Of a stretch of DNA of 64,000 nt, positions 55,326-63,100 are shown in pieces. The DNA lies in assembly GCF_003054225.1 (NCBI RefSeq), contig NZ_QBKQ01000003.1, positions 186,001 to 250,000 on the forward strand, read 5' to 3'. This DNA comes from Christiangramia gaetbulicola (lineage in GTDB: Bacteria; Bacteroidota; Bacteroidia; Flavobacteriales; Flavobacteriaceae). Every line of letters begins with the position of its first letter. Positions within the stretch are counted from its first letter, which is position 1. The notes below the pieces were generated by a model. The model saw only the letters and a program-made list of their open reading frames with translations, made no database searches and was not told the origin of the DNA. The translations under genes were made by a program, and so were the position numbers.

Positions 55326-55991
55326 TTGGTCCTCTTCCATCATAAACATCCATATCCACCATTTATACCAGAAACGGCGACCAAATTAGTCGTGGGTACG
55401 CTGCCACCACCTCGATTCACCAAAAGGGAATTCAAGGAAGATGACGTTGATTTTTGCTATGGCAGCCGCGATGGGCAATTATGGATCATCCTGGACAGAA
55501 TTTTCGATCTTGAACTAAAATTTGAAAATACCCAGGAAGCTATTCAGCAGCGAAAGGATTTTTTAATTGAAAGAGGGATTGGGATTTGTGATGTGGTAGA
55601 AAGCAGCAGGAGAGAAAAGATAGATGCTTCAGATATTGGAATGCAGAAGGTAGAACTACGGGATATGATCTCTATTTTGAGAAATCATCCTAAAGTTGAT
55701 ATTTTGCTTTTTACCGGTGGAAACTCAAAGAATGGTCCGGAATATTTTTTCAGGAAATACCTTAAAGAGTCTGAACACGATATCAGGCTAAAAGTTGTTT
55801 CGAATAAAGCTCCCAGAATTCACCAGTTCTTATTAGATGGAAGATTGATCAAAACAGTTTCGCTAATCGCGCCATCTGGAGCAGCTAATATTGCAGTTGG
55901 AAGTTCACTTCTGTATAAAGAATTAAAAAAGAAAAACCCTGAATTCAATACTATTGATTTCAGGGTTCTTCAGTATAGAGAATTTTTCTAG
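55326..55991 (+). CDS. Uracil-DNA-glycosylase-superfamily-like protein
   Basis: A 221-residue protein resembling flavobacterial proteins annotated as uracil-DNA glycosylase family. Characteristic segments: HPYPPFIPETATKLVVGTLPPPRF, DVDFCYGSRDGQLWIILDRIF, RGIGICDVVESSRREKIDASD, VDILLFTGGNSKNGPEYFF, and LIAPSGAAN. The start is a TTG, since no in-frame ATG exists before the conserved region; it is 25 bp from the repeat element. Base specificity is not known. The first gene of its strand after yaaA. Confidence 0.75.
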   Translation: MVLFHHKHPYPPFIPETATKLVVGTLPPPRFTKREFKEDDVDFCYGSRDGQLWIILDRIFDLELKFENTQEAIQQRKDFLIERGIGICDVVESSRREKIDASDIGMQKVELRDMISILRNHPKVDILLFTGGNSKNGPEYFFRKYLKESEHDIRLKVVSNKAPRIHQFLLDGRLIKTVSLIAPSGAANIAVGSSLLYKELKKKNPEFNTIDFRVLQYREFF

Positions 55992-61530: not shown

Positions 61531-62925
61531 CTAAATTTCTTCAGCGATTTCCAGGGCTTTAGTCAATGCCCCTAATTTATTATAGACTTCCTGTAATTCA
61601 TTTTCAGGTTTTGATTCTGAAACAATTCCAGCCCCGGCCTGATAATGTAACTCATGATTCTTGCTTACAAAAGACCTGATGATAATGGCGTGGTTAAAGT
61701 TTCCTTCAAAATCCATAAAACCAATTGCTCCACCATAAGCACTCCGGTTCACGTTCTCAAATTTTTCGATCAGTTTCAGGGCCATAGGTTTTGGCGCACC
61801 ACTTAAAGTTCCCGCGGGGAAAGTGTCTGCAACGATCTGAGGGGTGGGGACATTAGGATCTTTCTTTCCGGTAACCTTGCTCACCAGGTGGATCACATGG
61901 GAAAAGAATTGGATTTCCCTATAATTCTCCACTTTTACATCGCTGCCATTCCGGCTAAGATCATTCCTGGCAAGATCTACCAGCATTACATGTTCTGAAT
62001 TTTCTTTTTCGTCTGCAGCCAGTTCTTTCGCAATTTCCGCATCTTTTTCGTCATTTCCAGTTCTTTTGAAGGTGCCTGCGATAGGATGAATTTCGGCTCT
62101 TCCTTTATCAACTACCAGTTGAGCTTCCGGCGAACTTCCAAAAATTTTGAAGTTTCCGTAGTCGAAATAGAACAGGTAGGGGGATGGGTTTACATTTCTC
62201 AGGGCACGATAAACATTGAATTCATCACCCTTAAATTTCTGAGAGAATCTCCTGGAAAGTACCAACTGAAAAACATCTCCTCTATGACAATGTTCTTTTG
62301 CTGCTTTTACAACAGACCTGTATTCATCATCGGTTAAATTAGAAACCGCATCTTCGTGTCTGCTGAAATTATAAGAAGCAAAATTCTTTACTTTCAATAA
62401 TTGCTCGATCTCATCGATCTTACTTTCTGAAGCATAAGAGTGATCAAAAATATAAGCTTCATTTTTAAAGTGATTGATGGCGATGATATTCTGATAAACT
62501 GCGTAATAAATATCCGGGATCTTAAGATCTTTTTCCTTCCTGGTCACCTCGACATTTTCAAAATATCTTACAGAGTCATAGGCTATGTACCCAAAAAGTC
62601 CATTATTTATGAATTTAAAATCAGAAGAATCTGCCTTGAATTGTTGGGAGAATTTCTGAATTTCCTGAGGAACGGAAACCGAAGGATCAACATTCATGGT
62701 TTCTGTTTTCCCATCTGGGAATGTTGAGGTAATTACCTCATTTTCCAATTTGAAGGATGCAATGGGATTGCAGCAGATATATGAAAAACTGTTATCGCTA
62801 GCGTGATAATCACTACTTTCCAGCAATAAGCTGTTTGGATATTTATCTCTTAACTTCAGGTAGATACTAACCGGGGTAATGGTATCGGCAAGAATTTTTT
62901 TATATTTTGTATTTAATTCAAACAT
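61531..62925 (-). CDS. trpE: Anthranilate synthase component I
   Basis: 464 residues; makes anthranilate from chorismate, first committed step of tryptophan synthesis. The tryptophan-feedback motif LLES is present at residues 34-37 (LLESSD), so the enzyme should be inhibited by its end product. Catalytic segments HPIAGTFKRTGNDEKD, EHVMLVDLARNDL and GTLSGAPKPMALKLIE are intact. It is the first structural gene of the operon and is preceded by the leader peptide and terminator. Confidence 0.97.
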   Translation of the reverse strand: MFELNTKYKKILADTITPVSIYLKLRDKYPNSLLLESSDYHASDNSFSYICCNPIASFKLENEVITSTFPDGKTETMNVDPSVSVPQEIQKFSQQFKADSSDFKFINNGLFGYIAYDSVRYFENVEVTRKEKDLKIPDIYYAVYQNIIAINHFKNEAYIFDHSYASESKIDEIEQLLKVKNFASYNFSRHEDAVSNLTDDEYRSVVKAAKEHCHRGDVFQLVLSRRFSQKFKGDEFNVYRALRNVNPSPYLFYFDYGNFKIFGSSPEAQLVVDKGRAEIHPIAGTFKRTGNDEKDAEIAKELAADEKENSEHVMLVDLARNDLSRNGSDVKVENYREIQFFSHVIHLVSKVTGKKDPNVPTPQIVADTFPAGTLSGAPKPMALKLIEKFENVNRSAYGGAIGFMDFEGNFNHAIIIRSFVSKNHELHYQAGAGIVSESKPENELQEVYNKLGALTKALEIAEEI

Positions 62926-62943
62926 TGAATGTTGATTTTAAGC

Positions 62944-62976
62944 AATAAAAAAAGGCTTGTCGTGAGACAAGCCTTT
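62944..62976 (-). terminator. trp attenuator terminator
   Basis: An 11-bp perfect stem AAAGGCTTGTC/GACAAGCCTTT around a 4-nt TCAC loop, then TTTTATT on the minus strand, 18 bp before the trpE start. The loop and 3' arm contain CTCACGA, complementary to TCGTGAG at the end of the leader peptide gene, so an antiterminator is possible. Confidence 0.85.
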
Positions 62977-63007
62977 GTAATTTCTATAATGGAAATAGCA
63001 GTTTAGC

Positions 63008-63055
63008 TCACGAAGTTTGACGTAAGTTATTCCACCACCAGTTATTTTTTTTCAT
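63008..63055 (-). CDS. trpL: trp operon leader peptide
   Basis: A 15-residue reading frame, MKKNNWWWNNLRQTS, with three consecutive Trp codons (63037-63029). An in-frame ATG three codons earlier (63064) would give MFT-MKKNNWWW. It lies between a consensus promoter and the attenuator terminator, 82 bp before trpE. The stop codon overlaps the TCGTGAG segment that can pair with the terminator. Stalling at the Trp codons would leave this segment free; reading to the stop would cover it. This is the textbook layout of transcription attenuation. Confidence 0.85.
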   Translation of the reverse strand: MKKNNWWWNNLRQTS

Positions 63056-63069
63056 TGTAAACATGACTT

Positions 63070-63100
63070 CAAATATAGAGATGAATTTTTTCAAAACAAA
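63070..63100 (-). promoter_or_regulatory. trp operon promoter
   Basis: TTTG (63100-63097), exactly 19 bp, then TATATTTG (63077-63070) on the minus strand: a perfect TTTG/TAnnTTTG promoter. The transcript would start only a few bases before the first leader-peptide ATG. Confidence 0.8.

Follow-up and report, generated by a model that had tools for sequence, protein, structure and literature searches.

Organization of the trp Locus and Its Leader

The window analyzed here, a 64,000-nucleotide stretch of the Christiangramia gaetbulicola genome, carries on its minus strand the genes trpE (62925–61531), trpG (61529–60903), trpD (60899–59904), trpC (59898–59110), trpF (59109–58396), trpB (58394–57213), and trpA (57128–56358). 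The expected Pfam domains were detected in all seven (including PF00425 and PF04715 in trpE, PF00117 in trpG, and PF00697 in trpF), in agreement with the order trpE-G-D-C-F-B-A given in a preliminary description of this DNA. NCBIfam cut-offs were passed by trpG (TIGR00566), trpD (TIGR01245), trpC (NF001377), trpB (TIGR00263), and trpA (TIGR00262); no NCBIfam match over cut-off was obtained for trpE and trpF, the best match of the former (trpE_most) lying below it. A 221-residue open reading frame (ORF) at 55326–55991 adjoins the operon, for which no Pfam match was found at an E-value of 0.001.

Ahead of trpE, a promoter of the form TTTG-N19-TATATTTG was located at 63100–63070 on the minus strand, as had been proposed from its resemblance to the consensus. 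Its TTTG (63100–63097), which we take to be the upstream element of the Bacteroidota-type promoter consensus, stands 19 nt ahead of the −7 box TATATTTG (TAnnTTTG) at 63077–63070. The position of this box would place the transcription start near 63065 (~+1, ±2 nt; minus strand), 0–3 nt from the ATG of a leader ORF. This ORF (63064–63008, minus strand) encodes MFTMKKNNWWWNNLRQTS in 18 codons, contains three Trp codons, TGGTGGTGG, at 63040–63032, and is closed by the TGA at 63010–63008. Of the two lengths suggested beforehand for this Trp-containing leader, 15 and 18 codons, the longer one is preferred because all 24 same-genus loci retain the ATG at 63064, 24 nt ahead of the first Trp codon, whereas only 15 of 24 retain the inner ATG at −15. 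The gap between box and ATG is 5 nt in the window, and since the box position implies a start codon at approximately +2, the leader mRNA is probably leaderless. According to the accessible portions of a report on F. psychrophilum (PMC9723704), the −7 box of that species lies at −12 to −5, and leaderless transcripts make up only 5.5% of its mapped mRNAs. A TAnnTTTG box is present in 133 of the 144 loci with sufficient upstream DNA. In this 144-locus set, the gap to the ATG has two peaks, at 4–5 nt (47 loci) and at 15–19 nt (59 loci), as seen in L003, L007, L039, and others, a pattern suggesting that, within one family, the same attenuator occurs in both leaderless and led forms.

Between the leader and trpE, 21 nt ahead of the latter, lies an intrinsic terminator, an 11-bp hairpin at 62976–62951 on the minus strand (−15.6 kcal/mol), whose arms (62976–62966 and 62961–62951) enclose the loop UCAC at 62965–62962; seven T at 62953–62947 (minus strand) constitute its U tract. 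The 127-nt leader folds with a z-score of −4.63 relative to 200 shuffled sequences. On the same strand, UCGUGAG at 63013–63007 (segment 2), which contains the leader stop codon, is complementary to CUCACGA at 62966–62960, a target composed of the final base of the 5′ arm, the four loop bases, and the initial two bases of the 3′ arm. Both the terminator with its U tract and this complementarity overlapping the stop codon were thus located as previously described. The CGUGAG portion also has a potential protector-hairpin partner in CUUACG at 63026–63021 (segment 1, minus strand), with a p-value of 0.02 in the window and a weak signal class-wide. When the post-Trp segment of the window locus alone was shuffled, the 7-bp pairing gave p = 0.017 and 0.023, which is only suggestive for this single genome. 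The pairing becomes solid at the sequence level because of the comparative data across loci presented below, and TCGTGAG/CTCACGA is likely to act as an antiterminator directed at the apical loop of the terminator.

Positions 63084–62966 match the Rfam family RF01692 (Bacteroid-trp) over the full model (1–131) with 69.1 bits against a gathering cut-off of 49, and sit upstream of trpEGDCFBA, which is the family location in Bacteroidota. By this match, the window element is an ordinary further member of RF01692, alike in sequence and structure over the whole model as well as in its location before the trp genes. The consensus structure of the family is one hairpin that extends across the leader ORF and ends within the 5′ arm of the terminator; the model includes neither the full terminator nor an antiterminator, both of which are supplied by the analysis of the window. 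No match to the Trp_leader family RF00513 was found in the window at E-values up to 5. A plus-strand match to the sRNA BTnc231 at 62893–62979 (31.1 bits against a cut-off of 80.4) was rejected, being the trp terminator read on the opposite strand. In the accessible parts of the respective reports, Bacteroid-trp was catalogued in 2010 by Weinberg et al. (PMC2864571) and placed ahead of the trp operon of F. psychrophilum (PMC6414381), and "strong clues" of leader-peptide attenuation were noted ahead of amino-acid operons of this species (PMC9723704). The earlier remark that such control is little documented in Bacteroidetes is to be corrected in that the element itself has been documented.

Conservation of the Leader among Relatives

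A TGG run and a terminator precede trpE in 75 of 80 loci chosen by TrpE alone. The other five comprise two without upstream DNA, two that are cut or chimeric with the terminator bases kept, and one (L090) that shows neither. Loss of the Trp codons or of the hairpin in close relatives, which had been named beforehand as evidence against an attenuator, was looked for, and both features proved to be kept. The pairing was followed in 136 distinct loci, which are not independent because they are all related and many were picked via the Rfam model; L001 (the window twice), spurious second rows of L067, L098, and L145, and identical sequences were removed before the counts. TCGTGA is kept at the place of the antiterminator in 122 of the 136 loci, 116 of which carry TCACGA at the terminator apex; the motif is absent in 14, and the apex match is broken in 6 more. 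Its TGA serves as the leader stop in 99 of the 122 loci, and the stop occurs earlier in 11 and later in 12, which argues that the motif is kept not merely as a stop codon. RNAduplex p-values were ≤ 0.05 in 116 of the 136 distinct loci, a count to which no independence is ascribed because the sequences are related.

Within the family, the arms of the terminator vary unusually little, and none of the 30 genomes searched contains the arm pattern more than once. Such constancy could point to the terminated leader RNA or the peptide as the main product, acting in trans with the switch being secondary, as described in the accessible text on rnTrpL/peTrpL of S. meliloti (PMC7298713), and the probably leaderless short mRNA resembles that case. 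However, short extra pairs join the 5′ arm of the terminator to the leader, providing a cis reason for the constancy, and a main product acting in trans is considered highly unlikely here.

Two individual loci showed further peculiarities. At L031 (75–360), from a genome belonging to the same order, trpE follows two tandem WWW leaders that each have a separate terminator; in the second leader, TGCGGGA pairs with the loop TTCCGCA. The trpE gene of L060 (1391–2776) contains one in-frame TAA, which may reflect either sequencing error or decay.

Spacing and Covariation across the Class

A discovery set of trpE upstream regions, chosen by TrpE alone and represented by one locus per genus, covered 24 genera. 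In 22 of them, the post-Trp segment and the terminator form their best contiguous helix at a centre 14–25 nt past the last Trp codon, while 5.0 were expected from shuffles (P = 1e-13); this range was chosen after part of the discovery data had been seen, and L155 and L178 fell outside it. The mean energy of the discovery helices was −9.05, compared with −5.36 ± 0.46 in shuffles. With the criterion fixed beforehand, a held-out set of new genera was evaluated, which consisted of 40 loci drawn from 108 genomes in which TrpE was matched. A set rule identified leaders in 31 of the 40 loci, representing 28 genera, three of which were seen twice or more. Of these 31 loci, 24 had the helix centre within the 14–25 nt range (6.6 expected, P = 2e-11), and the mean energy was −8.80 against −5.15 ± 0.34. 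Seven of the 31 missed the range; L203, for which an incorrect upstream TGG pair had been taken, was scored as a miss and omitted from the 54-locus and protector-hairpin tests described below. Nine of the 40 loci failed the leader rule, although L199, L206, and L211 are still leader-like by eye; in L214, which also failed, trpB precedes trpE in the operon as judged by eye. Inspection of L196 and L219 revealed, before trpE, a terminator and short ORFs containing just one Trp codon, which are possibly reduced attenuators. The shared spacing fits the predicted front edge of a ribosome stalled at the Trp codons.

When terminators were swapped among 54 loci, segments with their own terminator gave −8.88 kcal/mol, compared with −4.67 ± 0.34 for permuted pairs (5000 permutations, none below −5.8; z = −12.5). 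The own terminator was the best of the 54 for 12 segments and among the top five for 36, and the helix strands were distinct in 53 of the 54 class loci. Both sides of the helix change together in other genera, giving GCGAG/CTCGC, TCGCGA/TCGCGA, GATTCAG/CTGAATC, and GTGAACAGC-type pairs. This joint change speaks against UCGUGA and UCACGA being protein-binding sites instead of helix partners, a reading that draws on their near constancy around Flavobacteriaceae (122 and 116 of 136 loci) and that we regard as extremely unlikely. The class-wide hairpin between segments 1 and 2 was weak, with a mean of −3.25 against −2.40 ± 0.22 and p ≤ 0.05 in 9 of 46 loci.

The same architecture extends far beyond detection by Rfam cut-offs. 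Among 60 class-level loci, 50 of which had a leader by script, none reached the cut-off of RF01692 or RF00513; the best RF01692 score was 48.2 (L192), and eight RF00513 matches remained below cut-off. Fifteen kin genomes without an RF01692 match yielded 12 TrpE-like matches, of which 11 were clear loci (L173–L183) with a TGG run and a terminator; these features were looked for at the weak TrpE-like match L184, and none were found.

Several loci also departed from the usual layout. Genome G460 possesses two trpE genes (L225 and L226), each located after a Trp leader and a terminator, with differing antiterminator sequences. L160 and L161 contain W-L-W instead of adjacent Trp codons, and L161 additionally shows a below-cut-off Flavo-1 match further upstream. 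A search of the window genome for His-codon runs gave 45 places.

Folding of Ribosome States and the Proposed Switch

Ribosome states of the window leader were examined by constrained folding. When the transcript was exposed through the whole terminator loop, the antiterminator probability was 0.7–1.0 per pair for a ribosome on any Trp codon, approximately 0.4–0.6 without a ribosome, and 0 for a ribosome at the stop codon. When five more bases were exposed, it was 0, 0.08, and 0.5 for a ribosome on the first, second, and third Trp codon, respectively, and on the first codon the hairpin between segments 1 and 2 was favored over the antiterminator. Once the terminator was complete, the antiterminator fell to 0, and the inner terminator pairs were near 1 in every ribosome state, including the stalled ones. 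The full-length fold likewise gave a terminator probability above 0.5 in 51 of the 54 class loci. Antitermination must hence be kinetic, because at equilibrium the complete terminator prevails whatever the ribosome state; in this model, the switch must act in the interval between emergence of the loop and emergence of the 3′ arm. In the folding check suggested for this region, with the RNA out to the loop, the pairing was near 1 with a ribosome on a Trp codon and 0 at the stop. The idea that stalling frees the first strand and that arrival at the stop masks TCGTGAG agrees with folds of partly transcribed RNA, but its corollary, that the pairing would break the terminator, is too strong, as the finished terminator wins at equilibrium.

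Three measures were set aside. Whole-leader equilibrium folding always gives the terminator and so cannot decide on a switch; the "P(AT base)" measure was near 1 in all 54 loci, counts any terminator-segment pairing, and is therefore uninformative; and the E. coli P(term) of 0.1, in which the bulged arm was read in the wrong register, was not used.

The dominance of the terminator at equilibrium in every state tested would also be expected if it were fixed or weakly regulated, with the leader ORF and the 7-bp match having no switching role, and a p-value of only ~0.02 for the match in the window genome alone is compatible with this. Such an arrangement is nevertheless very unlikely, given that position and complementarity are kept across genera while the letters change and that TGG runs are kept ahead of the terminator. 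The element is most probably a ribosome-dependent transcription attenuator of trpEGDCFBA, to which we assign a probability of roughly 0.88 on sequence grounds and which would respond to Trp. This reading is supported because the Trp codons, the terminator, and the competing pairing persist with compensating changes at a spacing consistent with a stalled ribosome, and the E. coli trpL control described below agrees with it; the Trp attenuator of the preliminary description is thereby supported.

The attenuator may operate as follows. The transcript made by the polymerase would carry its first codon at or beside the 5′ end, where a ribosome would start and then follow the polymerase. When charged tRNA-Trp is ample, the ribosome would reach the UGA at 63010 and cover UCGUGAG, allowing the terminator to form. 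When it is scarce, the ribosome would wait on UGGUGGUGG, its front edge stopping short of UCGUGAG and blocking part of segment 1. The free UCGUGAG could then catch CUCACGA as the terminator loop emerges, delaying closure of the hairpin so that the polymerase enters trpE. We infer antitermination and not the reverse because the strand would be free under starvation, the very condition that calls for the operon.

A broader proposal, which we hold tentatively and at somewhat less than even odds, is that nearly all trp operons in the GTDB class around this genome are controlled by Trp attenuation, run as a purely kinetic capture of the apical loop, on its exit from the polymerase, by a strand ~18 nt past the Trp codons and just beyond the stalled ribosome. 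The outcome would be decided no more than a few nucleotides from the U tract, with many genera reading an mRNA that begins at the leader AUG. If true, tight transcription-translation coupling would be required in a phylum without Shine-Dalgarno initiation. The leader would offer a natural assay for such coupling and for leaderless initiation in Bacteroidota. The element type was already known; what is added here is the anatomy and range of a testable antiterminator for RF01692, for which the accessible text of earlier reports gives only a predicted hairpin. No description of an antiterminator for Bacteroid-trp was found in the open-licence literature, a scope outside which most subscription papers lie.

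Comparison with Known Attenuators

In the discovery set, 15 of the 22 helices within the spacing range included at least two loop bases, and in the held-out set 20 of 24 did so, compared with 6.0 and 7.3 expected; this preference had not been named in advance. In L065, L069, L159, L164, and L166, the helix uses the 5′ arm of the terminator. The same method applied to E. coli attenuators gave 0–1 loop bases for trp, thr, leu, phe, and ilvL, three for his, and four for ivbL. Loop targeting is thus a tendency of the present group and not unique to it, because two of the seven E. coli attenuators (his and ivbL) also enter the loop. A stricter reading, in which only the terminator loop is targeted, was softened in view of these two, the extra 5′-arm pairs, and the 5′-arm lineages.

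The E. coli trp leader has a Shine-Dalgarno-type start, unlike the window leader, whose start codon probably lies near +2. As in the window, E. coli trpL (RF00513) carries Trp codons and a terminator before trpE, and its CGGGC/GCCCG helix starts 14 nt after the last Trp codon, which is the same spacing. The proposed likeness to the enterobacterial trp operon accordingly holds for the Trp codons, spacing, and terminator. It does not extend to the target, which is mainly the terminator loop in the window (1/4/2 bases in 5′ arm, loop, and 3′ arm) and the 5′ arm only in E. coli trpL (5/0/0). The best helices of E. coli ivbL (3/4/0) and his (5/3/0) enter the loop as in the window, though these attenuators concern other amino acids and show no sequence likeness to the window element. 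Sinorhizobium meliloti trpL, from another phylum, is according to the accessible text a trp attenuator with an RNA that starts at the ATG of the leader, and trans-acting products are reported for it (PMC7298713), and the window transcript would resemble it in starting at or near the leader ATG.
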